This document shows positions 5-21,554 of a DNA stretch of 22,783 nt, in pieces (within the stretch, counting starts at the first letter, position 1; the number at the start of each line of letters is the position of its first letter). Position numbers and translations under genes: made by a program. Origin of the DNA: a virus. The notes beneath the pieces are model-generated. The model had not been told where the DNA came from and ran no database searches. It saw only the letters and a program-made list of their open reading frames with translations. The stretch is taken from the IMG/VR virus record IMGVR_UViG_3300031766_000075, positions 1 through 22,783 of that record; one strand, given 5' to 3'.

Positions 5-33
5 AGTATAACAGGTAAACCACTGAAAGTCAA
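5..33 (-). promoter_or_regulatory. sigma70-type promoter at left window edge
   Basis: Read on the minus strand there is TTGACT, a 17-base spacer and TATACT (-35 at 33..28, -10 at 10..5). The -35 contains the TGA stop codon of the last gene in the window, so the promoter is nested in that gene's end and fires out of the window to the left. Same architecture as the promoter before uvsE. The gene it serves is not visible. Confidence 0.6.
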
Positions 34-215
34 GGCTTTTTTTCGCTGAGTAGCTTTAAATCGTAGTCCCAGATGTTGTCTCCAACCTTACCGTTTTGCC
101 ACAATACCTTGAACACTTTATTTAGAGCGGTTGAGTGTGGCACTGAGGCAACAACTATTCCAACCCAGCGTCGGCCGGTTGGGTGGTTGTCTTTCACTAG
201 GTCACCGACCTTCAC
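30..215 (-). CDS. small SH3-like GDLV-family protein A
   Basis: 61 residues, GTG start preceded by GGAG eight bases upstream. It opens M-K-V-G-D-L-V, then has a W-V-G-I-V strand near residue 17, a K-V-L-W-Q-N-G turn near residue 36 and an acidic/basic end. The alternation of short hydrophobic strands with a central N-G or D-G turn suggests a small beta barrel of the SH3/KOW kind; this is a fold guess from pattern, not a known family match. It is the last of five consecutive paralogues and overlaps its upstream neighbour by 14 bases. Function unknown; binding nucleic acid or a protein partner are both possible. Confidence 0.75.
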   Translation of the reverse strand: MKVGDLVKDNHPTGRRWVGIVVASVPHSTALNKVFKVLWQNGKVGDNIWDYDLKLLSEKKP

Positions 216-384
216 TAACTAACTCCAATTCATCATGATCGTTTTCTATCGGTCCGGTGGTGTTACCATCAAACCAAAGCACATAAACGATAGAGCTTCC
301 AGTAATCTTGCTGACGATTCGCGTCTGTAGAACAATGCCCATTCCATCATCGGCGCGCCATCGTACCAGGTCACCTGCTTTCAT
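202..384 (-). CDS. small SH3-like GDLV-family protein B
   Basis: 60 residues starting M-K-A-G-D-L-V-R. It carries the family pattern: a G-I-V strand at about residue 16, V-L-W-F-D-G at 35-40 and L-E-L-V-S-E at the end, which closely parallels the L-K-L-L-S-E end of the downstream paralogue. The ATG sits in an ATGA overlap with the stop of the preceding gene, so the two are probably translationally coupled. Function unknown. The recurring V-L-W-x-(N/D)-G turn suggests gene duplication rather than chance. Confidence 0.75.
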   Translation of the reverse strand: MKAGDLVRWRADDGMGIVLQTRIVSKITGSSIVYVLWFDGNTTGPIENDHDELELVSEGR

Positions 385-548
385 GGCACAATCTTTCTCA
401 TTAAATCGTCAGACCAATGCTCTCTCTTGCCTGTGTGTTGGTCCACAAGAATGTGCCAACATTCAGTTACCTCAACAATGATTCCGTAACCCATTACTTC
501 ACCTGAAGCAGCGCGGTATTGGACATAATCACCCACATCTATGTTCAC
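381..548 (-). CDS. small SH3-like GD(Y/L)V-family protein C, GTG start
   Basis: A 55-codon gene that is easily missed because it starts with GTG. Reading from 548 gives V-N-I-D-V-G-D-Y-V-Q-Y-R, then G-Y-G-I-I-V-E-V, W-H-I-L-V-D, and an end in D-L-M-R-K-I-V-P with TGA at 383..381. The start is supported by a strong Shine-Dalgarno (TGGAGG, seven bases before GTG) and by filling what would otherwise be a gap. Its stop overlaps the next ATG (ATGA). The pattern (G-D-Y-V, G-I-I-V, a strand-turn-strand) matches its neighbours, so it belongs to the same paralogous set. No known function. Confidence 0.75.
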   Translation of the reverse strand: MNIDVGDYVQYRAASGEVMGYGIIVEVTECWHILVDQHTGKREHWSDDLMRKIVP

Positions 549-696
549 TGATAACCTCCACTGACCGTTCGTGAGTAAAAACGATTACTCCGTCAGATCT
601 CAAAACATCAAAATAACCGTTGCCTGTGAGTAGACTCGCGATCACACCTATGAAACTGTGATTACGCCTGTGCCTCACCAAATCACCGACTTTCAT
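529..696 (-). CDS. small SH3-like GDLV-family protein D
   Basis: 55 residues. The frame stays open further upstream, but the ATG at 696..694 is chosen because it has GGAGGTG just before it and gives the family N-terminus M-K-V-G-D-L-V-R. A G-V-I-A strand near residue 17, a D-V-L-R-S-D-G turn near 30-36 and a V-E-V-I-S-E end follow, as in the paralogues. It overlaps the upstream gene by 14 bases and the downstream gene by 20. Function unknown. Confidence 0.75.
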   Translation of the reverse strand: MKVGDLVRHRRNHSFIGVIASLLTGNGYFDVLRSDGVIVFTHERSVEVISEHRCG

Positions 697-904
697 TAAG
701 CACCTCCACGAAACCAGGGTCACCAAACCTAACGTGTGTATCAGGACCACTGGTGGAAACAAAAACCCGATACTTAACATTGGCGCTATTTTCTGGTTCA
801 ATGACGTCGACGACACCGATCTGGTTTTGCCACCACCAGCTACATCCAGGTACATCCGGAAGCCTAACCAGGTCACCTATCTTGATTTCTTCCATAAAGC
901 TCAT
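683..904 (-). CDS. small SH3-like GDLV-family protein E
   Basis: 73 residues from the first ATG; an ATG at 895..893 (giving M-E-E-I-K-I-G-D-L-V-R) fits the family N-terminus better and is the likelier start. A tryptophan run near residues 23-25 is followed by G-V-V-D-V-I and Y-R-V-F-V, again a strand-rich pattern, and it ends F-V-E-V-L-N-E, similar to the V-E-V-I-S-E of the next paralogue. It overlaps the small membrane protein upstream by 20-30 bases. Function unknown. Confidence 0.7.
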   Translation of the reverse strand: MSFMEEIKIGDLVRLPDVPGCSWWWQNQIGVVDVIEPENSANVKYRVFVSTSGPDTHVRFGDPGFVEVLNESR

Positions 905-1037
905 CCAATTTCTTTTTTTGTTCCACTTTTTTAATTACTTCTCGCCAGAAGTCTTCCTTCTGACGCTGATAAAGAGCGTGTTTGATTCTGTTGCGAATAA
1001 AAAGGAGAACAACTATCCCAATAACAATTTCTATCAT
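873..1037 (-). CDS. small single-pass membrane protein
   Basis: A 54-residue reading frame from ATG 1037..1035 to TGA 875..873. Residues 2-14 are almost entirely hydrophobic (I, V, L, F), followed by R-N-R-I-K and a highly charged Lys/Glu/Gln-rich tail. That is the layout of a short membrane anchor with a basic cytoplasmic tail. AAGGTAG lies about ten bases upstream as a modest ribosome site. A near-consensus promoter ends only six bases before the ATG. It fills a 140-base gap and overlaps the next gene by about 30 bases. Such tiny membrane proteins are common in phage early regions; no specific role can be assigned. Confidence 0.55.
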   Translation of the reverse strand: MIEIVIGIVVLLFIRNRIKHALYQRQKEDFWREVIKKVEQKKKLDELYGRNQDR

Positions 1038-1043
1038 AATACT

Positions 1044-1072
1044 ATTCTACCTTAGTATGTCTGTAATGTCAA
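1044..1072 (-). promoter_or_regulatory. sigma70-type promoter
   Basis: TTGACA (1072..1067), 17-base spacer, TAGAAT (1049..1044), on the minus strand. The -10 contains the TAG stop of the upstream gene. The predicted transcription start falls at or next to the ATG at 1037, so the first transcript would be leaderless or nearly so, or the promoter mainly serves the GDLV genes further on. Confidence 0.65.
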
Positions 1073-1250
1073 TAACTTTTTCTTGTGATTTTGGTACTTC
1101 TTCTATCTCTTGACAGTGGTACCATCCGTTCTTGGTAGGGTCTTGAAATTCAAGATCGACGAGCCATTGGGCGATGCCAATGCAAACACACTTGCGTTTG
1201 AACCTCTTGGACCAATAAGTGTGATTGCATTTGACGTCTCTTGATTTCAT
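1047..1250 (-). CDS. small Cys/His-containing protein of unknown function
   Basis: 67 residues if the ATG at 1250..1248 is used; it overlaps the upstream TGA (ATGA), which favours coupling. A GTG at 1283 would add 11 residues; neither has a clear ribosome site. The N-terminal half is very basic with K-C-N-H near residue 8, C-V-C at 21-23 and H-C at 45-46, and the C-terminal half is acidic. The Cys/His spacing could bind a metal, but the pattern is not a recognised zinc finger. Function unknown. Confidence 0.6.
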   Translation of the reverse strand: MKSRDVKCNHTYWSKRFKRKCVCIGIAQWLVDLEFQDPTKNGWYHCQEIEEVPKSQEKVIDITDILR

Positions 1251-1501
1251 GTTGGAAAGGAATACTCTAGTGTTTTTATACACTTAACAAATTCTTTGTT
1301 TTTCGTGGGTATATATCCTGGTTTGTTTATGAGCTCAAATTGATCCTCTTTTAGCTCCGCCCATTCACCGTTGATCCAAAAGTAAATCAAAGATTTGTTT
1401 GAGTGGGCGTCAAGCTTTATGAAACAACCTTCTTCTCCATTGACGTTCAAGTCAAACAGATCGTAGTCGTCAGTGCAGCGTACTGCTTCACCCCTCTTCA
1501 T
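1247..1501 (-). CDS. small beta-rich protein, possible distant GDLV-family member
   Basis: 84 residues. The frame is open further upstream, but the ATG at 1501 is chosen because AAGGAG lies six bases before it and it shares a base with the preceding stop (TGATG). It begins M-K-R-G-E-A-V-R, resembling the K-x-G-D-L-V start, and contains C-F-I-K-L-D, I-Y-F-W-I-N-G-E-W and F-E-L-I, parallel to the strand, N-G turn and E-L-V end of the GDLV proteins. Membership is an inference from these short matches. Function unknown. Confidence 0.65.
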   Translation of the reverse strand: MKRGEAVRCTDDYDLFDLNVNGEEGCFIKLDAHSNKSLIYFWINGEWAELKEDQFELINKPGYIPTKNKEFVKCIKTLEYSFPT

Positions 1502-1779
1502 CAAAGCTCCTTGCGTATAAGCTGGCTCTTTCTGAGAGAGTCTGCCACGACTTGCGAGATCGAAAGCCGATCGGATTCGTCGCCGCAACAGAATTGTCCA
1601 TTGTTTTCTAGAGCCTCTCTTACGGTGATGAATACCCTCTCGTACGAGTCTTCGGCGTCCGATAAAGCCTTCGTGTCTAGGTTATCTACTTCATGAAACT
1701 CTGAAGTGCGATATTCTTCTTCAATTATCGTCTTCAAATGTCTCCCATTTCTTATTTTTGTCACTCTGTCTAAAGACAC
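1501..1779 (-). CDS. small helical protein of unknown function
   Basis: 92 residues from a GTG with AAGGAAG six bases upstream. This start gives a 59-base overlap with the preceding gene; a TTG at 1737 preceded by GGGAG would cut the overlap to 17 bases and is a fair alternative. The sequence is charged and looks mostly alpha-helical, with C-C at about residues 64-65. A near-consensus promoter inside the preceding gene (1821..1849) would give a leader of about 35 bases to the GTG, supporting expression from here. No family recognised. Confidence 0.55.
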   Translation of the reverse strand: MSLDRVTKIRNGRHLKTIIEEEYRTSEFHEVDNLDTKALSDAEDSYERVFITVREALENNGQFCCGDESDRLSISQVVADSLRKSQLIRKEL

Positions 1780-1966
1780 AATCGTCTTCCTTTCTTATCT
1801 CAAATGACTTGAGTCTTCTTATTTTACCTTTTCCGTAACCGTTTGTCAACAATATATTAAACAAACCTTCACTTACAAAGCCAACGATCACGCCTCGTAT
1901 TTTCGTAACGTGCCCTAGTGGCCTGTCGAGCAAGATGACGCGGTCCCCTTTTTCAAAGTCGTCCAT
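1721..1966 (-). CDS. SH3-like GD-V family protein F
   Basis: 81 residues. N-terminus D-F-E-K-G-D-R-V-I, then R-G-V-I-V-G-F-V and F-N-I-L-L-T-N-G-Y, i.e. the same order of a G-D-x-V strand, a G-V-I-V strand and a strand ending in an N-G turn as in the 30-904 cluster. A charged C-terminal extension of about 25 residues is unlike the others. It starts 19 bases after the thymidine kinase stop with no strong ribosome site; CTATTTAGAG lies directly upstream. Function unknown. Confidence 0.7.
   Translation of the reverse strand: MDDFEKGDRVILLDRPLGHVTKIRGVIVGFVSEGLFNILLTNGYGKGKIRRLKSFEIRKEDDCVFRQSDKNKKWETFEDDN
1821..1849 (-). promoter_or_regulatory. sigma70-type promoter inside gene F
   Basis: TTGACA (1849..1844), 17-base spacer, TAAAAT (1826..1821) on the minus strand, lying within the coding sequence of the SH3-like gene at 1721-1966. 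Predicted start near 1814, upstream of the gene at 1501-1779. The match is good but it is also coding sequence, so chance cannot be excluded. Confidence 0.5.
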
Positions 1967-2538: not shown

Positions 2539-3027
2539 TTAAATAGTTACTGAAAACTCTCCGCCATTATGCGGAATACTTACTGTCCAGCCTGATGCTG
2601 CGCATAAACTTTCTTTCAGGTTTTTGACAGTTGTCGTAAACTCTGCTGAAACAGTGCAACATCCTCTCTTGTGGTCGTACTGTTCTGTCGAAAACTCTAC
2701 GAACTCGTCTAAATCAAATGGATTTTCTCGAATAGTTTCCGCAATGAACTGTTGAAACTCGTATTCTCCCCTTTCATAATCTTCCAAAAAGTCAGCCTCC
2801 CTCATAGCCTGCAATGCGTTAGTGTCCCCAAAGGCAGTGTGCACAGCCAGCTGAGTGTCAGTAATTAGATCAGCGACCCGATCTGCGGTATCCGTCTCCC
2901 GAACGGCATTCTCTTCTAAGTCCCCTGTAGAGTGCCAGCCTTCGTGCCGATCTTCATAGGTTAGTGTGACGATTGTCTCGTCGGTTACATCAAGGTTGTT
3001 GATGGTATCAATAATTGTTACAGACAT
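2539..3027 (-). CDS. acidic protein of unknown function
   Basis: 162 residues, strongly acidic, with a ribosome site AAAGGAG six bases before the ATG and a 10-base overlap with uvsE upstream. The N-terminal part is rich in Thr/Asp/Glu (D-E-T-I-V-T-L-T-Y-E-D), the middle is helical and acidic, and the C-terminus looks like beta strands (W-T-V-S-I-P ... F-S-V-T-I). Two adjacent cysteines sit near residue 122. No family recognised. Its place between uvsE and tdk in one transcription unit suggests early expression but does not reveal its role. Confidence 0.8.
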   Translation of the reverse strand: MSVTIIDTINNLDVTDETIVTLTYEDRHEGWHSTGDLEENAVRETDTADRVADLITDTQLAVHTAFGDTNALQAMREADFLEDYERGEYEFQQFIAETIRENPFDLDEFVEFSTEQYDHKRGCCTVSAEFTTTVKNLKESLCAASGWTVSIPHNGGEFSVTI

Positions 3028-3986
3028 GTTTTCTCCTTTATTTGTTGATGTCTTTCTGTTGTTGTCGCTCTCAATCTTAAGAGCGCTAATTCTTTCTTCT
3101 TACATTCTAGCATAATATCGTGTGTTTGTCCATGGTTTTCTACTGGTCTTTGGATAAAATCTGAATGAGCTTGTTTGCGAATTTTTGGGTCGCCGTATTC
3201 AATAGCTTTCGACTCCGAGACGTGAACAACGGGAGTGATCCAGGGTGGCCAGGTTTTGGCGGCGAGTTTGACTGCTTCTCCTTCTGTGAGTCCTCCGGTG
3301 CAGAATCGATGGTGATGGTAATCGAAAACAATCGGGATTCCAGTTTTGTGATGAATTTTTTCATATATCTCCTTTGTGCTCCACATTGAAGCTTTATCAT
3401 CGTTCTCTAGTGTAAATCTCTTCCTACAGTTGACGTCGAGTCCGTTAGGATTATTGAAGTTCTCAATAAATCTAGCAGCTGTTTTCTCCTTGTCTCCGTA
3501 AGTGCCGCCAACATGAATATTTATCTTGTTGTAGTGGCTTGGCTCAAATCCCATCATGTCAAAGATGCGAGAGTGCATGTTTAAGTCCTTGTACGCCTTC
3601 TCTACGACGTTCTTGTGGGGTGAGCCAAGGCAATTGTAAGGTCCAGGGTGAAACGTCAGCCTATGGCCGTTTCTCGTGGCATACTCGCCAATTAGCTTGA
3701 GGCGTCTCCTGATCTCTCTGATATCTGGTAAGTCCTCATATTCATACTCTGAAGCCCATGGAAAGATGTCTGAAGACATGCGATAGAACTTGATACTGTT
3801 CTGCTCGTTCCACTTCAGTATTCTAAGTAGGTCCATAATATTGTCAAGCGCTAGTTCCGATGCGTATTTGACGCCTTTAGCTTTGAATGTACGCTTAATC
3901 ATAGAGCGGTTAGTCATGATACGCATTGATTTTGGCACGTCGGATAATGTCATGTTGATGCAGGCATAGCCGTAGTTCTGTGTCAC
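3018..3986 (-). CDS. uvsE: UV DNA damage endonuclease (UvsE/UVDE)
   Basis: Metal-dependent TIM-barrel endonuclease that nicks DNA 5' of UV photoproducts to start repair. 322 residues. Family signatures in order: Y-A-C-I-N-M near 7-12, R-M-S-S-D-I-F-P-W 69-77, F-H-P-G 112-115, I-H-V-G-G-x-Y-G-D-K 157-166, L-E-N-D-D 193-197, F-D-Y-H-H-H 221-226, V-H-V-S-E 254-258, D-I-M-L-E 290-294. Metal ligands H113, H158, E194, D222 and H255 are all in place. The lysine that the Thermus enzyme modifies two residues before the last of these His is Val here. GTG start with AAGGAA five bases upstream, 31 bases after a consensus promoter. Light-exposed habitat is plausible. Confidence 0.95.
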   Translation of the reverse strand: MTQNYGYACINMTLSDVPKSMRIMTNRSMIKRTFKAKGVKYASELALDNIMDLLRILKWNEQNSIKFYRMSSDIFPWASEYEYEDLPDIREIRRRLKLIGEYATRNGHRLTFHPGPYNCLGSPHKNVVEKAYKDLNMHSRIFDMMGFEPSHYNKINIHVGGTYGDKEKTAARFIENFNNPNGLDVNCRKRFTLENDDKASMWSTKEIYEKIHHKTGIPIVFDYHHHRFCTGGLTEGEAVKLAAKTWPPWITPVVHVSESKAIEYGDPKIRKQAHSDFIQRPVENHGQTHDIMLECKKKELALLRLRATTTERHQQIKEKTCL

Positions 3987-4017
3987 GCGAGTTCCTTAGT
4001 GTTGTGATTGTTTATAA

Positions 4018-4046
4018 AGTATAGCTTAAGTCTTGCGAAATGTCAA
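4018..4046 (-). promoter_or_regulatory. sigma70-type promoter for uvsE-tdk unit
   Basis: TTGACA (4046..4041), 17-base spacer, TATACT (4023..4018), minus strand. The TGA inside the -35 is the stop codon of the upstream cytidylyltransferase-like gene. The flanking AAAACCC before and TTTC after the -35 are shared with the groEL promoter. It lies in a 56-base gap and leaves a 31-base stretch to the uvsE GTG. Confidence 0.8.
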
Positions 4047-4465
4047 GGGTTTTCTGCACCTGAAGATGCAGATTCCACTAATTCGGAACTAGATTGAATC
4101 TTACCTCCGCCGGCGTTCCAGACAAGTATGATACCCATCTCTTCACAGATAAGAGATTCTGGGGTATTATTTTCGCCGCGGTCGCCCCCATTAGCAAAAA
4201 GGGCCGGCTTAATTCTTCGTATGGCCTCGCATACGGTGCCATCAGAGTCATCAACGGCGACAGCGCTGTGTACACCCTCTATGGATTCTATGATCTCAGC
4301 GCGTTCGGCCCAAGGCATAAATACGTATCCCTTTTTCCTCATTAACCAGTCGTCTGAATTGACTACTACTACTACTTCCCCGAACTTTGCAGCTTCCAAA
4401 ATCATGCGGACATGTCCCACGTGGATAGGATCGAACCCTCCTGATACCATTATCTTTCTTTTCAT
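4043..4465 (-). CDS. cytidylyltransferase-like nucleotidyltransferase
   Basis: 140 residues from the ATG at 4465..4463, chosen because AAGGAGTGAG precedes it perfectly. The N-terminus has the family signature G-G-F-D-P-I-H-V-G-H-V (HxGH class of adenylyl/cytidylyltransferases such as TagD, the RfaE C-domain and FAD synthase), with V-N-S-D-D after the second strand and F-A-N-G-G-D-R near residue 89. This fold transfers a nucleotide to a phosphorylated sugar, polyol or cofactor precursor. The substrate cannot be told from sequence alone; heptose-phosphate or glycerol-phosphate activation are the common options. A sugar-surface role is possible, as the nearby window also encodes a second nucleotidyltransferase-like protein. 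Confidence 0.88.
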   Translation of the reverse strand: MKRKIMVSGGFDPIHVGHVRMILEAAKFGEVVVVVNSDDWLMRKKGYVFMPWAERAEIIESIEGVHSAVAVDDSDGTVCEAIRRIKPALFANGGDRGENNTPESLICEEMGIILVWNAGGGKIQSSSELVESASSGAENP

Positions 4466-4466
4466 C

Positions 4467-4682
4467 TCACTCCTTTTCTGACACAATCAGCGCGCCAGTA
4501 TTATATGAATCTCTTTCTCTACAGAACCAGCCATACTCCCTCACTACTCGTATTGCGATTCGCCTCATCATGTCAGAGTTGCCAGTAATGATTTGACACG
4601 GAAGCTGCACAAAGTTCAGGAACATTCTGATCCTGTCCTCTGCGTCTCTATGTCTTGTTCCGTGAAGGTCTAGGCTCTCCAT
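4467..4682 (-). CDS. Smr-domain protein
   Basis: 71 residues, a minimal Smr (small MutS-related) domain. L-D-L-H-G at 4-8 is the hallmark motif, followed by an amphipathic helix, I-I-T-G-N-S at 32-37 in the place of the usual T-G-x-G, and R-R-I-A-I-R-V-V. Smr domains nick branched or junction DNA, or cleave RNA at collided ribosomes. The canonical glycine of T-G-x-G is Ser here, so nuclease activity is uncertain. It overlaps the upstream SH3-like gene by 35 bases and is followed one base later by the nucleotidyltransferase gene. Confidence 0.82.
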   Translation of the reverse strand: MESLDLHGTRHRDAEDRIRMFLNFVQLPCQIITGNSDMMRRIAIRVVREYGWFCRERDSYNTGALIVSEKE

Positions 4683-4950
4683 CTTCTATCTCTATCTTAA
4701 ATAGCCAATTGACAGACACATAGCCTAAATTACTACTGACCTTGTTTGCCGTGGGCGCAATCTTATCAAAGAAGCCGTCATATTTTGTTCCTGGCTGGAT
4801 CTGTATGAGCGCTTTTTCTTTGTTTAGTTGATTTTCGTATTGCGGGTGCATAAATTTTATTATCACGCCTATCCATGTCTTTCCGTAAAGAATGTGGGTG
4901 ACCAGATCTCCTGCTTTGAGATCTTTCGTTCTCGATGTTCGATGCGACAC
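4648..4950 (-). CDS. SH3-like GDLV-family protein G, extended
   Basis: 100 residues, GTG start with AGGGG nine bases upstream. An eight-residue lead is followed by D-L-K-A-G-D-L-V-T, then W-I-G-V-I-I-K-F, the same opening as the 30-904 cluster nearly 4 kb away. After that comes a long insertion (N-K-E-K-A-L-I-Q-I-Q ... Y-D-G-F-F-D) and a basic tail. It is the longest family member. It overlaps the Smr gene by 35 bases. Function unknown. Confidence 0.72.
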   Translation of the reverse strand: MSHRTSRTKDLKAGDLVTHILYGKTWIGVIIKFMHPQYENQLNKEKALIQIQPGTKYDGFFDKIAPTANKVSSNLGYVSVNWLFKIEIEDGEPRPSRNKT

Positions 4951-5649: not shown

Positions 5650-8175
5650 CTATTCTAATCTTATTAGGCCTGTTGATAATTTAAACAATGACTGTACATT
5701 GGTCAGCCTCTTTACATCTCTTACTATTCTTGCTTTTACGTTCTCCGGAGCGTTCATGTTGCCGGGAGTGGTGGGTATGAATTTAATAGCCAATCCGGCG
5801 ATGTACCTTCCTTCAGCGACCTTTTGATTTCTTATCGCGACGGTCACAATCGTCACATTTTCTAGGGCTCTCATGTCTGCTAAGATGTCGTCGAGGCCTC
5901 TGGATTTTCCTTCCCCGACTGTTAAACCATAGGCGATCATGCAATGGAATTTATAAACCCCTCTCTGCCGCGACCTTCCTTGTTCTTCTTTTATCTTTAA
6001 CTGTTCTTTAATAGTACCATAAAATTTGCCTTTTGTCATTATGTTTTTCCTAAAATAATTGTCTATTTCTGTGCCTACTTTATTGTTCGATTCACTTAGC
6101 CATGGCGGCTTTCCTGTTGTGACCGTATCAAGCTTCACAGATGTGTATGCTCCACCCCTATAATTTTGCAAAGCCATATCGCGGGCTTTCTTCATAATCT
6201 CGACACCCTCTTTGCTGTCGTAAGGAATCGAGTCAAGGTTTGGCCTCTTGCCTGTGAGTTTTGATTGTTGGTCAGCCCACAAGTTCGCATACTGAGGGTC
6301 GAACATTCCAGAGTCAATCATATATTTTACAACTTTCCTACTGAATTTACTCTCCCTGGCTGCTTCGACAAATTTTCGCGATGATGCGCGGTCTGAGAAG
6401 GACCACTTGAGCATAGGATTTTGTTCTGATGCGGGGAGGCCGATTCCAGACAAATTATTAGAAGACGTCCGAGTTTCCGCTTTTCCCACGTTAAGCATTT
6501 CAATTTTCTTTGAGTCACTGACTTTAGGATTCGCTATTACATCTATCCAACGACTCGATATCAAACTCTGCCGGCTTCGAGACTTAATGTCCTCTATTAT
6601 ATCATCGACCAACTCGTCACTCATCCCGGCTGAGTCAACGACAGTGGCGCTCAATCTGTCGTGGGCCCTTATAACTTGTATAAACTTTCCGTCTTTCTGT
6701 ATTGTATACAACTTTCTTACCAATTGCTTGTCAGCTTGTGGAGATTTTATGTATAGTTGCAGAATCTTACCATAAGGGGAAGAATTGTGATTCGCCATAT
6801 TGGGAGTCTGTGATGCTGCTTTTTCCACAAAGGGTTCACTCAGAAGATGTTCTACGATCTCCCTTTTTATACCTGCGTCTAGTTCGGGTATATTCATTAG
6901 TGTCTCCATGTAGTATAATTTTTCATCGAGTATGCCTCGTTTCAGCTCATCTCCCAGTCCTTGCCAGATTCTTGTCGCTAATTCAACAGGAGAAAAGCCC
7001 GGGGCATCGGCATGGAAAGTTGGGCCGTTGTCTCCAAGGAGAAAGCTTAACTGGCGCCCAATTGCTGGGTCCCTCAAATTCAAATTGACCCTTGCTAGGG
7101 TGTATCTCTGCTCTTCACTCAGATTGGAGTTCCTGACAATATAGTGTACTATTTCCTGTGTTCCTACTTTTTCTAAAACCGGTTCTATGCTAGAGCCGCC
7201 ATAGACCGGTCCGATAGCTTCGACCTGGCCGATGAAAAAGTCAATTAGCTCTGGAGATTGAGTTGATCTTATTAATTCTTTTATCTTATGTTCCGGAAGT
7301 TTTCCTGAGAGCAACATTTCCTTGATCTCTTCGTTTGACAACATATTCATGTAGTCGTGACTACCCTTGTAGTTGAACTTGGTGGTCTGTAGCCACTGTT
7401 TGATCATGGGTCTATACTTCTCTGCAGGTGGCTCGTTTCCTTTGCCTTTTATTTGTTCCACCTCTCCTGATCTTGTGACTTCTATTGTTGCATGCGGCTT
7501 GTTCCTTTTATCACGCAGAGAATAGATAGTCATGATGCCTTCCGCTACATCGTCACAATACCCTCCAACGCAATGCCCCATGAGATCGCCTTCTATCTCT
7601 AAGTCGTGTTCCGTGTTAACATCTACTATAGTAAAGCCGTTTTCGAATTCGTAAGCTACATCCTTTTGATCGTATTCGCCAGTGTATTTAATGCCTCTCT
7701 TCAACTCTTCGTGCCAATCTTCTGAAAGGTTAAATACGCTTTGCCAGTTCATTTCCCAGATATTGTCTGGAACTTCTTGCGATCCATTGAGGTAGTCTGC
7801 AATATATCTAACATCGTTGCTGTAGACATTTAGTTCTTCAGGGTTGTCAACAGAATCTAAGTTGTTCCTATCGGTTGTCTCGTGGGTGTAGATGGCGTTT
7901 CCGAGCCATTTAGCAAAGCGCTTCCTGCCTTCTCGTGGAAAATGATTGTCAGGTAAAAATTCCATCCAATCCACTAGTCCTTGTGGGAAGATTGGATTCA
8001 AATACTCGGGATCACGTTCCATTGCTTGAATTCGAGCAAAGTAGTCCCTAGTCTCCTCTTCGGGATCTTGTGGCTCTTCTTTTTGGAGAGCTTTGATATT
8101 TAGATTTCTGAGAATCTTAGAGTCTTGTTGTGCTTCAGCGAGGTAAGACCTCCACCTTTTATAATATTCTACCAT
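5650..8175 (-). CDS. large PcfJ-domain phage protein
   Basis: 841 residues. The N-terminus (Y-Y-K-R-W-R-S-Y-L-A-E) looks like a short helical tag. Residues about 155-265 match the PcfJ domain: L-M-G-H-C-V-G-G-Y at 198-206, I-Y-S-L-R-D 217-222, A-T-I-E-V 229-233 and Q-I-K-G-K-G-N 241-247. PcfJ is named after a conjugative-plasmid protein and its biochemical role is unclear. The middle (about 280-560) is a run of short helices resembling HEAT-like repeats. The last 150 residues look like a beta-alpha-beta-beta-alpha-beta (ferredoxin-like) domain. It lies behind a CTATTTATAG element; a weak AAAAAGG precedes the ATG. Probably a late or virion-associated product, but no structural homology is certain. 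Confidence 0.7.
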   Translation of the reverse strand: MVEYYKRWRSYLAEAQQDSKILRNLNIKALQKEEPQDPEEETRDYFARIQAMERDPEYLNPIFPQGLVDWMEFLPDNHFPREGRKRFAKWLGNAIYTHETTDRNNLDSVDNPEELNVYSNDVRYIADYLNGSQEVPDNIWEMNWQSVFNLSEDWHEELKRGIKYTGEYDQKDVAYEFENGFTIVDVNTEHDLEIEGDLMGHCVGGYCDDVAEGIMTIYSLRDKRNKPHATIEVTRSGEVEQIKGKGNEPPAEKYRPMIKQWLQTTKFNYKGSHDYMNMLSNEEIKEMLLSGKLPEHKIKELIRSTQSPELIDFFIGQVEAIGPVYGGSSIEPVLEKVGTQEIVHYIVRNSNLSEEQRYTLARVNLNLRDPAIGRQLSFLLGDNGPTFHADAPGFSPVELATRIWQGLGDELKRGILDEKLYYMETLMNIPELDAGIKREIVEHLLSEPFVEKAASQTPNMANHNSSPYGKILQLYIKSPQADKQLVRKLYTIQKDGKFIQVIRAHDRLSATVVDSAGMSDELVDDIIEDIKSRSRQSLISSRWIDVIANPKVSDSKKIEMLNVGKAETRTSSNNLSGIGLPASEQNPMLKWSFSDRASSRKFVEAARESKFSRKVVKYMIDSGMFDPQYANLWADQQSKLTGKRPNLDSIPYDSKEGVEIMKKARDMALQNYRGGAYTSVKLDTVTTGKPPWLSESNNKVGTEIDNYFRKNIMTKGKFYGTIKEQLKIKEEQGRSRQRGVYKFHCMIAYGLTVGEGKSRGLDDILADMRALENVTIVTVAIRNQKVAEGRYIAGLAIKFIPTTPGNMNAPENVKARIVRDVKRLTNVQSLFKLSTGLIRLE

Positions 8176-11406: not shown

Positions 11407-13308
11407 TTATTTTTCTTGCTGACCGGATGGTTTTAGATCAGTAGTCTTTTCGATGATGTTTTCGGACGCGTCAATGGCAGCGTTTGCCTTGGACTCGTCT
11501 TGCAATCCGCCAGCCATGAACGAGTATGTATTTTCTTGAACTTCCTTAACATTAAGAAAAATACCAAAAATAGCATCGTTAATTAAGCCGGTCATTCTGT
11601 TGAGCATGTTCTGGGTGTTTTGGGCGCCGATGAATATCTTTGCAAACTCAGCCTTAGATTGGCCCTCAGGTAAAACTCTCGATTTTGATAAGGTGTGGAC
11701 CTTTTCGACCACTGTTTGATTGAGGTTAAACTGCTCCCTGGAAAGGTAACCATAGCTTTGCTTAATTGCCAGTTTCCTCTCTTCGGTCGTACGTGAATCT
11801 TTATTATACCATTCTCTTGAATCTTGAACCGTTGCGAAGACGCCCGGGCTGTTAAGTTGCCTGAGTCTCTCGTCTTTAAGTTTAGATTTGGAATAAACAG
11901 ATAATACGTTAGTGCCTTGAAGACCGGACGCGGTCTTTTTGCCTGCAGCTTTTCCGTTATTGGCATATACCGCACAGCGAGCTAGATCCTTGACTACTGC
12001 GGTTAATTCGGCCTGTTCGAATTGTTCAATGAAAGGGTGCTGCTCAGCCTGGGTTTGAGTAAGGATGGCTGCGATTACTTCCTGCAGCTGTTTAAACCCC
12101 GATTTGCTTGCCATCATCGTTGAATCACCTCGTGAGATCCTCTTTGGCTCCGGTACAAAGCCTTCTGGGCGTTCTTCGCCTTTCTTTAGCTTGGGGTTTG
12201 GATCCCACTCGTTGAAATACGCATCTTCTGATGGCCAATTGATTCCTGTTGTAACCAAGGACAAAATGTCTTCGTCAACTGGCACCATAAAGCCTTTTCT
12301 AGCATATGTTTTATTTAGTGCGTCGACCTCCAACTTAAGCGCGGCTACGAACACTTGCTCCAGCTCTTCAGGTGATGGTATCGCTGATCCTGGGAGGGTT
12401 GCGGCGAAGTCCAAAGTTTGCCCAGAAATGAACTCTTGCGGTAGCATAATACACTTCCTAGATTTATCTGAAGATTGTGACAAGAGGTCAAAGACGTTCT
12501 CCAAAGTGAAGTCAAACTGAAACCACCTGAGGTATCCGTTTATATCTAGTCCTTCCTTTTGTTCTCCTTGGAACTTTTTAGTTACTGCCAAGTATCTCAT
12601 AAAAGGGTGGTCAAAGATATCCTTTTGTTGCTCAAGATCGTTAACCAAATCAGTGAACGAGCCGCCGACATGAAGCTTACCTTCTTGGTAGAGCTTGAGA
12701 GAGATTGGCGTATTCGTGCCATCTATTCTTGCTACAAAGTCTGCGATGGTACCGGTGTTGGCCTTAACTTGTTCTCCGCCAGAAAGGACGGCCAGGAATG
12801 CTTCAAAGTTGAATCCTGCAGACGCAGCATTAAAGTTCGAGATAACCTTTGTCAGAGTCTTAAAGAAGGTGAGGTACCCCAAGGCTGCAGCGATTTGCTT
12901 TGGCATAGGCGCTGCATCGTCGCCGAACATCGCCTGCAATGCAGCATCAGGATCATCATAGAACCTGGATAGGGAACTGATCTTTTCTTGAAAATTGTTT
13001 CCTTGTATGTTTGCGAGAAACTGTTCTAATTTCTGACGCTCAGGACCTGAGACATCTCCAGCTTCCCCTGTGAGGTTCGTCCAGCCTAATTCTGACACTG
13101 CTATCTCCGGGATAGCCTGAAGGGTGAGGGTCATCCCTTGATCTGATTCGAATCTCTCCCTCAGTAGCTGGGTTTTGCTCTTTTTAGGTGCAAAAAGTGT
13201 ATCTTTCTTGTGCTCATACACCTCTTCTATAAGCTTGAAAAGGTCGCCCATTGTCGATACTGATTTCCTGTTATTGTTTTCTGATAAAAATTCTTTGTGC
13301 CACGTCAT
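11407..13308 (-). CDS. large phage protein with possible PD-(D/E)xK-like core
   Basis: 633 residues. The best clue is at 165-225: G-F-N-F-E-A-F-L-A-V-L-S-G-G, then T-I-A-D-F-V-A (D190), then I-S-L-K-L (S203, K205), then G-S-F-T-D-L. A helix with Glu followed by a Gly-Gly turn, an Asp strand and an S/E-x-K strand is the order of restriction-endonuclease-like folds; the usual second acidic residue is Ser here, so activity is doubtful. The rest is helical, with a Lys/Gly-rich segment near 450-490 and Q-E-K at the end. Ribosome site GAGGAA before ATG. It directly follows clpP and shares its promoter. It could be a structural or packaging-related protein. Confidence 0.65.
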   Translation of the reverse strand: MTWHKEFLSENNNRKSVSTMGDLFKLIEEVYEHKKDTLFAPKKSKTQLLRERFESDQGMTLTLQAIPEIAVSELGWTNLTGEAGDVSGPERQKLEQFLANIQGNNFQEKISSLSRFYDDPDAALQAMFGDDAAPMPKQIAAALGYLTFFKTLTKVISNFNAASAGFNFEAFLAVLSGGEQVKANTGTIADFVARIDGTNTPISLKLYQEGKLHVGGSFTDLVNDLEQQKDIFDHPFMRYLAVTKKFQGEQKEGLDINGYLRWFQFDFTLENVFDLLSQSSDKSRKCIMLPQEFISGQTLDFAATLPGSAIPSPEELEQVFVAALKLEVDALNKTYARKGFMVPVDEDILSLVTTGINWPSEDAYFNEWDPNPKLKKGEERPEGFVPEPKRISRGDSTMMASKSGFKQLQEVIAAILTQTQAEQHPFIEQFEQAELTAVVKDLARCAVYANNGKAAGKKTASGLQGTNVLSVYSKSKLKDERLRQLNSPGVFATVQDSREWYNKDSRTTEERKLAIKQSYGYLSREQFNLNQTVVEKVHTLSKSRVLPEGQSKAEFAKIFIGAQNTQNMLNRMTGLINDAIFGIFLNVKEVQENTYSFMAGGLQDESKANAAIDASENIIEKTTDLKPSGQQEK

Positions 13309-13328
13309 GTTAAAGTTCCTCTATGTAA

Positions 13329-14036
13329 TTAGATAATTTCGTCTGCAATTCCCATTTTAATTGCTTCTTCTGCGGAGATATAAACATCCTTCTGTGTCTT
13401 CAATAACTTCTTTATTTTTGACGGAGTCAGGTTGGTATAATTCGCGAGAGTCTGTATGTACCTTTCCTGGATCCATTTGATCTCCTCAAGTTCATTCTCC
13501 ATAGAGAAGATTGTTCCACCTGTGCCCGCCATTACATTATGAAGCATGATGCGACAGTTGCGACCCACTCGGCGCTTGCCGGGTGTGCCGGCTGCTAGAA
13601 TAGGAACTCCGGCTGACATGACCTTGCCAATACCAATCGTCTCAATGTCACATGTCCTTTCCCTGATCATGTCCATCACATCAAGGATAGAGAACATGTC
13701 GGAAGCGGTGCCACCGTGAGTGGACACCAACATAGCTATGCTGCGTGCGACGATGACCGGGCCTTCAGTTTCGCCATCGGGGTGTTCATCCACTTTAACG
13801 TGCGAGGAGTTCTCTAGATAAAGCAATGCAGCTACGACGTCTGCTCCCTTCTGCTCGCTGATATCTCCGTAGAGGTTTATTGTTCTCAACTCCGGCTCTG
13901 GATTCGCTGGAGGTTGGATATTATTTATGATTACGATATTCTTCTCTTCGTCCAGCAAGGACTCGGAAGGCTTCTTCTTTTCTTTGTGCTTATTTTTCTT
14001 TTTCTTTTGGGGTTGGCCCGAGATTCTTTGCACCAC
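13329..14036 (-). CDS. ClpP-like serine protease
   Basis: 235 residues, ClpP/crotonase fold. Catalytic triad by position: S141 in V-M-S-A-G, H166 in M-L-H-N-V, D217 in K-D-V-Y-I; the Ser-His and His-Asp spacings (25 and 51) match bacterial ClpP (25 and 49). The oxyanion G-G is at 108-109 within S-T-H-G-G, replacing the usual N-S-P-G-G. The Lys-rich N-terminal 22 residues and an insertion near 80-96 are unlike host ClpP. Either a partner for host Clp ATPase or a prohead protease; no capsid gene is beside it in this window. GTG start with GAGG five bases before. Confidence 0.9.
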   Translation of the reverse strand: MVQRISGQPQKKKKNKHKEKKKPSESLLDEEKNIVIINNIQPPANPEPELRTINLYGDISEQKGADVVAALLYLENSSHVKVDEHPDGETEGPVIVARSIAMLVSTHGGTASDMFSILDVMDMIRERTCDIETIGIGKVMSAGVPILAAGTPGKRRVGRNCRIMLHNVMAGTGGTIFSMENELEEIKWIQERYIQTLANYTNLTPSKIKKLLKTQKDVYISAEEAIKMGIADEII

Positions 14037-18122: not shown

Positions 18123-21100
18123 TCATGCCAGTAGTTTGAACATCTTTCTCATGCTGAAGGTGGAGAATCCCCACTGCTGATTATAATTTAGTCTTGCCAT
18201 GTACGGTCTATTGATGTGTACAATATCTCTAGTTGGGTCGACACCCCAACATCTGATTATGTTAGTTTCATTGTTGTCGTCGATCACCTTGACTACATAG
18301 AAGTTCTTGCCGTTCTTGGACTTCTTGAGTTTGCATTCCCTGGGGATAAACCACGTTACTCCAAGCTCGGGATCGAACTCTGAGATTGGAGGGATATAAA
18401 GTTCGTCCAGCTTTGTTCTCACTCTGGGTGTCACTACCGCAGAGATTGGGAACACACCAGTCAAGTTAACCATGTACTCTAATTTCTCTTCTTCCGAAAA
18501 GTCCCCTTCGGGTGCATATGTAACAATGTTCTCTTCTAGATTCTTTAACTTTCGAGGGCGATCCTCTGCAATTGCGCTATAAAAGTGCTTCAAGCCGGTG
18601 AATCTGTCATCAACCAAATCATTGAGAGCCTGAGCCAGTGTCAATGCCGAGATTGATTTCTTGTTCAGTTTTGAGTACTTAATCTTCTCGTGAAACAAGA
18701 AGTCCTCAACCGTGTTGAATGGCCGATGTTCTATGATTTGTTGAATCGCTACAGCACCTAGTCCTTTGATTGACGTTAGTGGTTGAATGAGCGTTTTACC
18801 ATCAGCGCTGATATCCCAGACTGTACCTGAAGTGTTCACATTCAAAGGCTCAACTATATAGCCCAACGACTTGGCCGTTGCGATTGCTCGCTCCTTGCGA
18901 GTCTCTGGTTCTTTGTCTAGAAAAGCCGCCAACCACTCCACCGGATAATAGTTAAGGAGGTAAGCACACTGATAAGACAGCACGCAATAGGAAACAGCAT
19001 GAGACTTATTGAAGCCGTACCCTGAAAAGTATTCAAATGTTTCCCATAGTTCTCTTGCTTCATATTCTTTCATTCCCTTCTCGATGCAACCGCGCTTGAA
19101 CTTGTCGAAGATCTTATCCTTCTCTGCCTGGACCGAGCCGGTGCCCTTCTTTGTTAGGAGCTTTCTTAACTTGTTACCCTCATCGAGGGACAGGTCCTTG
19201 CCCAACTTGTGGGCGAGCATTGCAATCTGCTCTTGGAAAATAAGGAAGCCGTACGTTTCTTCAGTCACTTCCTTTACTCGATTGTTGATGTACTCTACTT
19301 CGTCTGGGTTGTTCTTTGCGTGGACAAACTTCCTGTCTACTCCTGCGCCGAGAGGGCCAGGCCTGTAGATTGAAGTGATAGCCGACAGGTCAATAATATT
19401 GTCTGGCTTTGCATTCTTGCAGAACGATTGGGCGCCGGCTTCTGTGAATTGAAAAATTCCAGCCCACTTGCCTTTGTGAAAGATATTCTCCCACACTTCT
19501 TTGTCATCTAGGTTGATCTTCTCGGGATGAAGCTTCTCATCATAAAAGTTCTTTATGTCTGCAAACGTAGGATTCTCCAGGCCATGGTGCCGCTTGAGGA
19601 TTCGTTCGATGGCGCCTTCAAGCATTCGCAAAGAGGCCAAGCCCAAGATGTCAAATTTGATGAAGCCCATGGGCTCTAGATGGCGGACGTTCTGACCCTC
19701 TGACCATGGAGTCTGTGTCACCCCTCCCGAGTTGATTAGTGGCATCCACTCGTTTAGGTTCTCTCCCACAACAACGCCGCCTGCATGTCTCGATGCTGAA
19801 CGAGTTTGCCCATACAACTTTTCAATGTGAGTTTTGATGTGCGGGTATTTACTCAAAAACTCTTGCAGCGACTCCGAGAACTCCATTAGTTCCTCGAAGG
19901 TAGGAGCATAAACACCAGAGGTGATACCATGCTTTGCTTTGGCACGCGGAGTTGCCTCGTATACCATCTTGCTAGTCACATTGTTAACTTCTGTGAACTC
20001 GATTCCGTAGAACTTGGAGATATCCTTGATTAGGGATCTCAATTGAAGAGTATTCCAGTTTGTGATTGGTACCACCGAGTTGCGGCCCCACTGTTCAATC
20101 AGCTCTTCCTTGAGAGTCATAGGGTCTGAAACATCATAATCAATATCTGGGTATCCGGAGCCACCTTTGGTCAAGAATCTCTCGAATTGAAGTCCGTAAG
20201 CAATTGGGTCGACCTGAGTTATATTCAACACATAAGCTACTAATGAACCTGCAGCGGAGCCGCGGCCAGCACCTACAAGCTGACGGTCTGAAGCGACGTC
20301 TGCAATTGCCTTCATTGTGAGGAAGTACTTCGAGAAACCTCTCTCTTCAATTACCGCAACCTCTCTCTTCAAACGCTTGACGTATTCCTCGTTGTCCTGC
20401 ATGCCCATTGATCTAAGGCCTTCGACACACAACGCAGATAGGGTCTGGCCAGCAGTGGAGCCCTCAGGTACTACGAAGTCAGGTAGTCGAACCGTGTTAT
20501 CGGGCAAGAAAGACTCGATACGCTCATGAGCGATTTGATGAGTCCTCTTGATTGAGTCAAGAACAAGGTCGTCATCATACTCTGTGTTGGTTGAAGCTGA
20601 GTATCTCTTGTAAGATTCGAACATTTCGTCACCGTTCTTGGGGTACAGTTCGTATCCGATTTCTTCAACCGAGACGGGCAACTCATTGGACAAGTAGTCC
20701 GGGCGTCCCTTGCCTAACCAGCCGAGCCTTTTGTAAAGTTCGCGGTCCTTCCATACATCTGCATTGTAATAGTGCGAGTCAGCTGTCGAAATTAGTTCAA
20801 TTCCAAATTCTTGGTGCATCTGGATGATGTATTTGTTCAGGTCGTGCTGCTCTGGGATGTTGTTCCATTGCAACTCTCCATACCACCTATCCCCGAAGAT
20901 GGACACCATCTTCTGAGTTGTTTGTCTCATTGCGGACAAGATCATATCTGGGCCAGCGTCTCTGTTTTCCCAGTAATTTCCAGCATAAACCCCGCCGAGG
21001 CATGCGGATGCAGCGATGACACCCTCGTTGTGTTTCTTGAGCAGTGCATAGTCTACCCTTGGGTATCGATAAAAATTATCACCAGAGTAAGATCTGGAGA

Positions 21101-21554
21101 TCATCTTGAAAATATTTTGGAGACCTGTCTGATTTTGAGCTAGCAAAATAAGGTGGCGCCGGCGGTTCAGGACAGACTTCATCTTCTTCTTGGACTCTTC
21201 GTTCTCGACAGTAGTTCCAGAATTGTTAGCCTCGTACTCTGACTTGTTCTTAGCTGCTGATTTGATTGATTCGTATTCTTCTTTCCACTTTGCAACGGAT
21301 GGAATAAAGTAAGCCTCGCACCCAAAGATGGGCTTAAAGTCTCTGCCTTGCTTTTGCATCTTCTTTGCATGGAGCACCTGATAGGCTAGCCCGTTAGCAT
21401 TGCCGTGATCAGTCAATGCTAAGGCATCCATGCCGTTGTCGTAGGCAAAATCCATGTGCTCCTGCGGGTAGCCCAAGGCGTCGAAAGGTGAGCCAGCGAC
21501 GGAGTGGGCGTGGAGGCCGACAAACGGGATAGCGCTTTTTTTTCTAGATGTCAT
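18123..21554 (-). CDS. dnaE: DNA polymerase III alpha subunit (DnaE type)
   Basis: Replicative DNA polymerase of the bacterial C family. 1143 residues, the full DnaE length (E. coli 1160). PHP domain at the N-terminus with H-A-H at 15-17 and T-D-H at 48-50; palm catalytic carboxylates D470 and D472 in P-D-I-D-Y-D and D635 in K-F-D-I-L-G-L; thumb/fingers around 700-850 (G-F-N-K-S-H-A); helix-hairpin-helix I-K-G-L-G-A-V-A-I-Q-Q-I; OB-fold near the end. No clamp, clamp loader or helicase is in the window. Phages normally encode family A or B polymerases, so this is unusual. It may displace the host alpha or use the host clamp. Confidence 0.97.
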   Translation of the reverse strand: MTSRKKSAIPFVGLHAHSVAGSPFDALGYPQEHMDFAYDNGMDALALTDHGNANGLAYQVLHAKKMQKQGRDFKPIFGCEAYFIPSVAKWKEEYESIKSAAKNKSEYEANNSGTTVENEESKKKMKSVLNRRRHLILLAQNQTGLQNIFKMISRSYSGDNFYRYPRVDYALLKKHNEGVIAASACLGGVYAGNYWENRDAGPDMILSAMRQTTQKMVSIFGDRWYGELQWNNIPEQHDLNKYIIQMHQEFGIELISTADSHYYNADVWKDRELYKRLGWLGKGRPDYLSNELPVSVEEIGYELYPKNGDEMFESYKRYSASTNTEYDDDLVLDSIKRTHQIAHERIESFLPDNTVRLPDFVVPEGSTAGQTLSALCVEGLRSMGMQDNEEYVKRLKREVAVIEERGFSKYFLTMKAIADVASDRQLVGAGRGSAAGSLVAYVLNITQVDPIAYGLQFERFLTKGGSGYPDIDYDVSDPMTLKEELIEQWGRNSVVPITNWNTLQLRSLIKDISKFYGIEFTEVNNVTSKMVYEATPRAKAKHGITSGVYAPTFEELMEFSESLQEFLSKYPHIKTHIEKLYGQTRSASRHAGGVVVGENLNEWMPLINSGGVTQTPWSEGQNVRHLEPMGFIKFDILGLASLRMLEGAIERILKRHHGLENPTFADIKNFYDEKLHPEKINLDDKEVWENIFHKGKWAGIFQFTEAGAQSFCKNAKPDNIIDLSAITSIYRPGPLGAGVDRKFVHAKNNPDEVEYINNRVKEVTEETYGFLIFQEQIAMLAHKLGKDLSLDEGNKLRKLLTKKGTGSVQAEKDKIFDKFKRGCIEKGMKEYEARELWETFEYFSGYGFNKSHAVSYCVLSYQCAYLLNYYPVEWLAAFLDKEPETRKERAIATAKSLGYIVEPLNVNTSGTVWDISADGKTLIQPLTSIKGLGAVAIQQIIEHRPFNTVEDFLFHEKIKYSKLNKKSISALTLAQALNDLVDDRFTGLKHFYSAIAEDRPRKLKNLEENIVTYAPEGDFSEEEKLEYMVNLTGVFPISAVVTPRVRTKLDELYIPPISEFDPELGVTWFIPRECKLKKSKNGKNFYVVKVIDDNNETNIIRCWGVDPTRDIVHINRPYMARLNYNQQWGFSTFSMRKMFKLLA

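Follow-up and report, generated by a model that had tools for sequence, protein, structure and literature searches.

A probable recombinase-free array of shuffled SH3-like gene cassettes joined by a dual-coding junction in uncultured phages

The IMG/VR virus record IMGVR_UViG_3300031766_000075 (positions 1 to 22,783; the whole stretch of 22,783 bases is referred to as the window) opens with a row of five very small genes, which we analyzed together with 14 related IMG/VR contigs, all metagenome assemblies. These genes probably form part of a recombinase-free cassette array, in which each unit encodes a different SH3-like barrel of ~60 residues and is linked to its neighbor by a self-phasing, translation-coupled junction. 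Successive units are joined through a box of ~33 nucleotides (nt) that holds a strong Shine-Dalgarno sequence, the start and first residues of the next gene, and the end and stop of the preceding one, and that would preserve frame, stop, start, and ribosome-binding site in whatever order the units stand. By the design of the box, any unit may follow any other, leaving two intact and coupled genes, and the box itself may act as homology for general phage recombination, not as an integrase site. A single dual-coding junction would then serve in translation initiation, in termination, and as homology for recombination, resulting in a private, fast-changing set of about 20–30 binding proteins per phage.

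Neighboring family genes overlap in a uniform manner. An overlap of exactly 14 nt was found in 150 of 221 close family pairs compared with 21 of 870 pairs of other genes in these phages, the commonest overlap between non-family neighbors being 4 nt. Of these 221 pairs, 198 overlap by more than 4 nt in one phase and a single one in another phase, with 17 further pairs overlapping by 4 nt. The overlaps share a 33-nt box, TTGGAGGTAATCAGTGAAAGTCGGTGATTTGGT, which ends the preceding protein as ...L-E-V-I-S-E-S-R-stop in the upstream frame and starts the next one as (M/V)-K-V-G-D-L-V in the downstream frame; a Shine-Dalgarno sequence, GGAGGT, lies inside the box 6 nt from the start codon. An SH3-like gene starts at 229 of 234 boxes. 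Codon usage within the box is narrow, with Val-3 encoded by GTC (89%) or GTA (10%), as opposed to 21% and 17% in gene bodies, and Lys-2 by AAA (85% vs 52%). As GTC and GTA alike are read as arginine in the frame of the upstream gene, this choice points to dual coding. An E-(L/V)-(L/I)-S-E end had been listed in the original prediction as a trait shared by the copies; it is present, yet mostly represents the dual-coding junction box, as E-L-S-E-type ends are carried by 137 of the 150 copies that have a 14-nt overlap behind them vs 23 of 200 others, many of these 23 exceptions stemming from start-codon choice in the analysis. The phased overlaps and the embedded Shine-Dalgarno sequence also speak for the earlier suggestion that the overlapping genes are made together. 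On these sequence grounds, we consider a coupled, dual-coding junction between the array genes highly likely. The box was also considered as an RNA hairpin and rejected as such, with no consistent fold in the three boxes tested. On a contig of a metagenome-assembled genome (MAG; L247:161-983), a gene of 197 amino acids (aa) resembling GTP cyclohydrolase II (RibA) has ...IISESR as its C-terminus and shares 14 nt with the SH3-like gene that follows; hence, a non-SH3 gene can carry the junction end.

In the window, the open frames originally proposed for the five tandem genes were correctly placed, all on the minus strand: copy A (30..215, 61 aa), which closes its sub-array, copy B (202..384, 60 aa), copy C (381..548, 55 aa), copy D (529..696, 55 aa, with the start taken at 696 instead of a longer open frame to 876), and copy E (683..904, 73 aa, starting at 904 or 895). 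The proposed chain of overlaps is real, except that it extends to all five genes and not just to the first four, with overlaps of 14 nt between E and D, 20 nt between D and C, 4 nt (ATGA) between C and B, and 14 nt between B and A. Junction box B/A (196..228), comprising the Shine-Dalgarno sequence, the stop of B, and the start of A, matches 26 of 33 consensus positions, and box E/D (677..709) matches 28 of 33. Box D/C (529..561) contains a 6-nt insertion, so that its 20-nt overlap corresponds to 14 nt plus two inserted codons (21 of 33 positions ungapped), whereas the junction C/B (365..397) is degenerate, with 17 of 33 positions and an overlap of 4 instead of 14 nt.

That these genes form a family was put to the profile search which the original prediction had proposed. 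An iterated, decoy-controlled profile built from the copies recovers all five tandem genes and the gene at 4648..4950 (E-values 2e-20 to 4e-5); mutual similarity of A, B, D, E, and 4648..4950 lies above that of shuffled sequence in most pairs. Applied to 10,350 open reading frames (ORFs) of the window and its 14 relatives, the profile yields 350 family members, while none of the decoys made by sequence reversal scored below E 0.07. Related contigs harbor 15–33 copies each, on a single strand within any one contig. Membership does not hinge on the box-encoded ends. After the first nine and the last six residues had been trimmed, a profile from six training contigs still retrieved, in other contigs and at E ≤ 0.1, 113 of the 158 members held out, as opposed to 3 of 2976 ORFs outside the family and 1 of 790 shuffled sequences. 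With box ends removed, window copies score 0–16 bits against each other and 67–105 bits against copies in other phages. In contig G001, the counterparts of A and B are separated by four additional copies. The array of the window is the end of a larger one, truncated by the contig end.

We are almost certain that all array proteins share one fold, a small SH3-like barrel. AlphaFold2 models and profile matches agree on this fold, in line with the original guess. Copy A is predicted to contain five strands (predicted local distance difference test, pLDDT, 89.8), and the divergent copy E displays the same strand order at moderate confidence (pLDDT 78.3). Solved domains hit by the profile of the family include Spt5 KOW (E 1.5e-5) and ribosomal uL24 (0.002), as well as NusG and eL21. 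Foldseek points at B. subtilis YorP, Tudor, PWWP, and ribosomal barrels, with template modeling (TM) scores of up to 0.74 and PDB E-values all above 0.03; the best PDB match, 2heq (YorP; TM 0.73), has an E-value of 0.038 and hence indicates the fold class only. Many unnamed viral proteins in BFVD match the predicted fold, many of them small and belonging to one accession series (A0A516M and A0A516L prefixes); by their predicted structures, these are probably arrays deposited earlier without annotation. Positions conserved across the family are G-D-L-V together with a G, a V, and a W, residues of the barrel core. No catalytic residue pattern was seen among these positions, and a binding module is therefore the natural reading.

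Comparison of contigs indicates that cassettes are likely exchanged one by one at the box. Single genes reach up to 98–99% identity between diverged phages whose backbones are 66–76% identical. Copy A of the window, for instance, is 98.6% identical at the nucleotide level to copies in G001, G002, and G005, whereas most of the surrounding sequence is 66–76% identical, and the window-G001 blocks around A and B meet within the box (window 194–214). Cassettes likewise exceed the backbone between the window and G001 (97.7% vs 73.3%), G001 and G005 (median 95.4% over eight cassettes vs 73.0%), and G015 and G016 (92.8% vs 67.6%). Cassettes common to two phages stand in scrambled order, with 5 of 50 adjacent orthologous pairs kept when the closest strains are excluded. 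Among 55 matching blocks of 120–300 bases, 75% of the 5′ ends fall in the start-codon box and 82% of the 3′ ends in the next box, compared with 12% and 11% for random positions. Contigs G002 and G005 are 100% identical over 11.8 kb and 99.6% identical over the adjoining 5.5 kb, G002 being equivalent to G005 plus one cassette flanked by a box on either side.

Several observations weigh against this reading. Some exchanges lie inside genes, as for a 3′-half match of 89–92% identity; blocks beginning mid-gene mean that exchange is not confined to the box. BLAST block ends reach the limit of the conserved box where neighbors differ, which places a crossover to the box and no finer. Backbone identity is itself mosaic, with one window-G001 gene block at 87.7%, and short repeats can cause chimeras in metagenome assemblies. 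Box conservation could be due to translation alone, with crossovers as a by-product. Moreover, the array proteins give no functional hit: Pfam and PHROGs searches with single copies and with 90 members returned scattered weak matches, none above the curated cut-off, and PADLOC returned two weak hits, none convincingly defense-related.

One competing explanation, an unlikely one in our view, holds that the box is a translation signal only, start-associated and serving coupling, and that shuffling is general phage mosaicism surviving at gene borders. Conservation of the box indeed peaks around start and stop, and GGAGGT at 6 nt from the start is comparable to the start-associated sequences of mycobacteriophages (PMC3203893). 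Yet conservation runs ~20 nt into the coding region with codon choice fixed, and dispersed family members do without the box.

Ordinary tandem duplication by unequal crossing-over within one lineage, the box being an inherited junction held by the reading frame, is improbable. It would produce the uniform phase automatically (198 in-phase overlaps of more than 4 nt vs 1), the single-unit difference between G002 and G005 resembles one such event, and a few within-genome pairs are 81–87% identical. However, between-phage cassette identity is above that of the backbone, cassette order is scrambled, and the best relative resides in another phage for 158 of 169 box copies, a figure biased by the larger number of copies elsewhere than in the home genome. 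A fair comparison of one genome at a time is weaker, with 1007 cases better elsewhere, 740 better at home, and 115 ties; copies of one array are therefore no closer kin than copies across phages. On cassette identity, order, and kinship, simple expansion by local duplication was rejected as the dominant process, and the "local expansion" of the original prediction is misleading, recent change being single-gene exchange between phages. The pool is open, with 137 cassette types in 196 box-bearing copies and 104 types met once. Orthologous cassettes, box excluded, show a pooled ratio of non-synonymous to synonymous substitution rates (dN/dS) of 0.13, and no pair out of 73 exceeds 1, indicating purifying selection; between-phage variation is therefore attributed to the swapping of units and not to fast change within them.

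Movement of cassettes by a dedicated enzyme that recognizes the box, be it a homing endonuclease or a recombinase, appears very improbable. Two HNH/homing-type endonuclease genes do stand among the array genes of G005, the contig looked at in this respect (2945–4189 and 6004–7128), but no tyrosine or serine recombinase was detected in 18 contigs, which may be incomplete (PF00589 control 14/14). Least credible of all is an artefact of chimeric assembly at short repeats, for although the window itself ends within a repeated spacer just past copy A, G002 and G005 stem from separate IMG datasets and agree across 17 kb save one unit, and the junctions are in phase and the genes under purifying selection.

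Returning to exchange of single cassettes at the box, we favor, with some reserve, homologous recombination as the driving process. A RecA-like (RecA/UvsX-like) protein is encoded in 11 of the 18 contigs, and the box recurs in arrays about every 180 bases. Phage T4 amplifies the anti-toxin counter-defense gene tifA through microhomologies of 6–10 base pairs (bp) (PMC9391042); a repeated 33-nt box offers far more homology.

Several known systems share features with the array. T4-type phages contain promoter early stem-loops (PeSL; Arbiol 2010, Comeau 2014, as cited in PMC4503421), which consist of an intercistronic promoter and a stem-loop. The likeness lies in a short conserved sequence between small T4-like phage genes and in modular shuffling among relatives, and gene exchange with breakpoints at a conserved element is found here as well. 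An early promoter and stem-loop at every junction is not: no consistent hairpin was seen, and a promoter-like match is present in some spacers only. The box moreover lies within a coding overlap and carries Shine-Dalgarno sequence, start, and stop, and the shuffled genes all belong to one fold family. The SAS/ESAS elements of cluster K mycobacteriophages (GGGATAGGAGCCC) stand upstream of unrelated gene families (PMC3203893); they are likewise repeated conserved sequences at many phage gene starts tied to translation initiation, whereas the present box is read in two frames and serves an array of one family. Integrons resemble the array in their rows of single-gene cassettes with freely permuted order and a common pool, but an integrase is absent here (PF00589 in 0 of 18 possibly incomplete contigs), and the present cassettes overlap in coding sequence while integron cassettes are separate. 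Amplification of T4 tifA similarly changes the copy number of a small counter-defense gene through short-homology phage recombination, although it is experimental, with identical copies and 6–10 bp, as opposed to a standing, diverged array with a conserved 33-nt box. To SH3-like, KOW, and Tudor barrels (Spt5 KOW, uL24, YorP 2heq, Pfam DUF1918), the array proteins are linked by predicted fold and weak but consistent profile similarity, but no Pfam or PHROGs family describes them. Anti-CRISPR candidates occur in shuffled clusters of two to four genes without shared sequence or structure, beside an Aca regulator (PMC7648647); runs of very small genes shuffled among related mobile elements are common to both, while the array comprises 15–33 copies of one fold, with no regulator identified. 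Taken together, the array lacks one tested defining feature each of PeSL (stem-loop), integrons (integrase), and SAS (several families). In its workings, it recalls the PeSL shuffling of T4 and, more loosely, the cassettes of integrons, and the box resembles SAS in marking starts. A recombinase-free analogue of integrons, with an open, single-fold cassette pool shared across a broad group of marine myoviruses, is a tentative reading with slightly less than an even chance.

The phages concerned look like uncultured, marine T4-related myoviruses, a view drawn from the T4-type genes and terminase relatives of G005. Related contigs are up to 190–293 kb in size; the 190-kb G005 encodes a T4-type major head protein, portal, terminase, and baseplate wedge, and when terminases are compared, Flavobacterium phage immuto (45% identity) and Microcystis phage Mel-JY01 come out as its nearest isolates. 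No copies were found in the isolates that rank closest in terminase or capsid (Flavobacterium immuto, Microcystis Mel-JY01, Rhodothermus RM378, and Synechococcus ACG-2014e), and a tblastn search of 50,697 phage records with copies A and B gave no significant match. The exact 23-nt pattern TNARTGAAAGTCGGTGAYTTRGT nevertheless occurs in at least 120 IMG/VR stretches. With looser matching, 851 boxes were counted among the matches listed, of which 664 terminate a frame open for at least 40 codons, and four further large contigs hold 17–29 copies each. Searches with the box pattern also identified arrays on seven stretches of MAG contigs, several of which look like phage DNA in bins and hence give no guide to the host. 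On L252 (CP070664.1, a WOR-3 MAG chromosome), box-bearing array genes adjoin EF-G- and Lgt-like genes, with more copies ~60 kb away on the opposite strand, representing either a prophage-like insertion or a mis-assembly. In the open-access literature, to which the search was confined as opposed to subscription literature, no earlier description of such arrays was found.

Other minus-strand features of the window concern the surroundings of the array. The gene at 4648..4950 (100 aa), counted among the copies in the original prediction, is a true family member (profile-profile probability 93%), albeit a single-copy gene without a box and not an array copy, with orthologues in all compared contigs except two. 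The gene at 1247..1501, also put forward as a possible copy, is a doubtful distant relative (77%, compared with 3% for an unrelated control) and a conserved single-copy neighbor of the array, not one of its cassettes. The third gene so proposed, 1721..1966, was not recovered by the profile (profile-profile probability 30%), and its inclusion was rejected as unproven. Both 1247..1501 and 1721..1966 have orthologues in most related phages, each in single copy. The array is preceded by a gene for a small, apparently membrane-anchored protein (873..1037), whose equivalent in some relatives has a junction box as its own end (...NESR-stop). A sigma-70-like promoter match (5..33; TTGACT, 17-nt gap, TATACT) overlaps the stop of copy A and sits in the spacer before the next sub-array, itself lost at the contig end. 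The sequence of this match after copy A is conserved in six contigs including the window; alone, such matches are not significant (shuffle p 0.11–0.48 per spacer). Individual sub-arrays may have their own promoters, judging from these sequences. Spacers of 52 nt are found in G001 (2282–2333), G005 (13302–13353), and others; the spacer contains GACTTTCA, complementary to the start box that follows, and a stem of 10 bp predicted there could mask the start.

Beyond the array region, Pfam identified thymidine kinase, UvdE, a PcfJ-like protein, glutaredoxin, and ClpP in the window, which further encodes GroEL and a DnaE-type polymerase III alpha subunit, both with phage homologues; Rfam and tRNA scans of the window gave no match. 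The best phage matches of the DnaE-type polymerase (18123–21554) are ~30% identical, and its pairing with a T4-type head and terminase, both encoded in relatives, is an unusual combination. The UvdE-type UV endonuclease gene (3018–3986) shows 86–88% DNA identity to G001 and G003, with most flanks at 64–76%, and has perhaps been exchanged recently too. A 633-aa protein (11407–13308) is unmatched in phage records and Pfam, with related contigs aligning across much of it.

As to function, inhibition of host complexes, given as an example in the original prediction, remains the most plausible class. The array proteins may serve counter-defense or host takeover, as binding modules delivered to the host cell in a changeable repertoire and most likely aimed at host defenses or regulators. 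Small one-fold modules, strong ribosome-binding sites, non-virion location, an open pool, and fast turnover fit this tentative proposal. A precedent for the fold is Nip, a counter-defense inhibitor of Bacillus phage with two predicted SH3-like domains (PMC11984713). Only a little less probable is a role in the biology of the phage itself, as nucleic-acid-binding KOW/Tudor-like factors or virion decoration. The profile resemblance to Spt5 KOW, uL24, and eL21 and the Tudor/PWWP and ribosomal barrels listed by Foldseek favor such a role, whereas the open cassette pool and its turnover among phages that are nearly identical suggest accessory functions that can be dispensed with, and the arrays of G005 are located apart from head and tail genes.

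Mosaicism of phages is known, but how small accessory genes swap without breaking their neighbors is rarely visible. The junction described here appears to solve this problem, making cassettes interchangeable and in phase, each with its own ribosome-binding site. The box provides a 23-nt search key that already leads to at least 120 viral contig stretches. If the proteins are counter-defenses or host-takeover modules, the arrays would form a ready catalogue of them, with 137 types so far, most of them met once.

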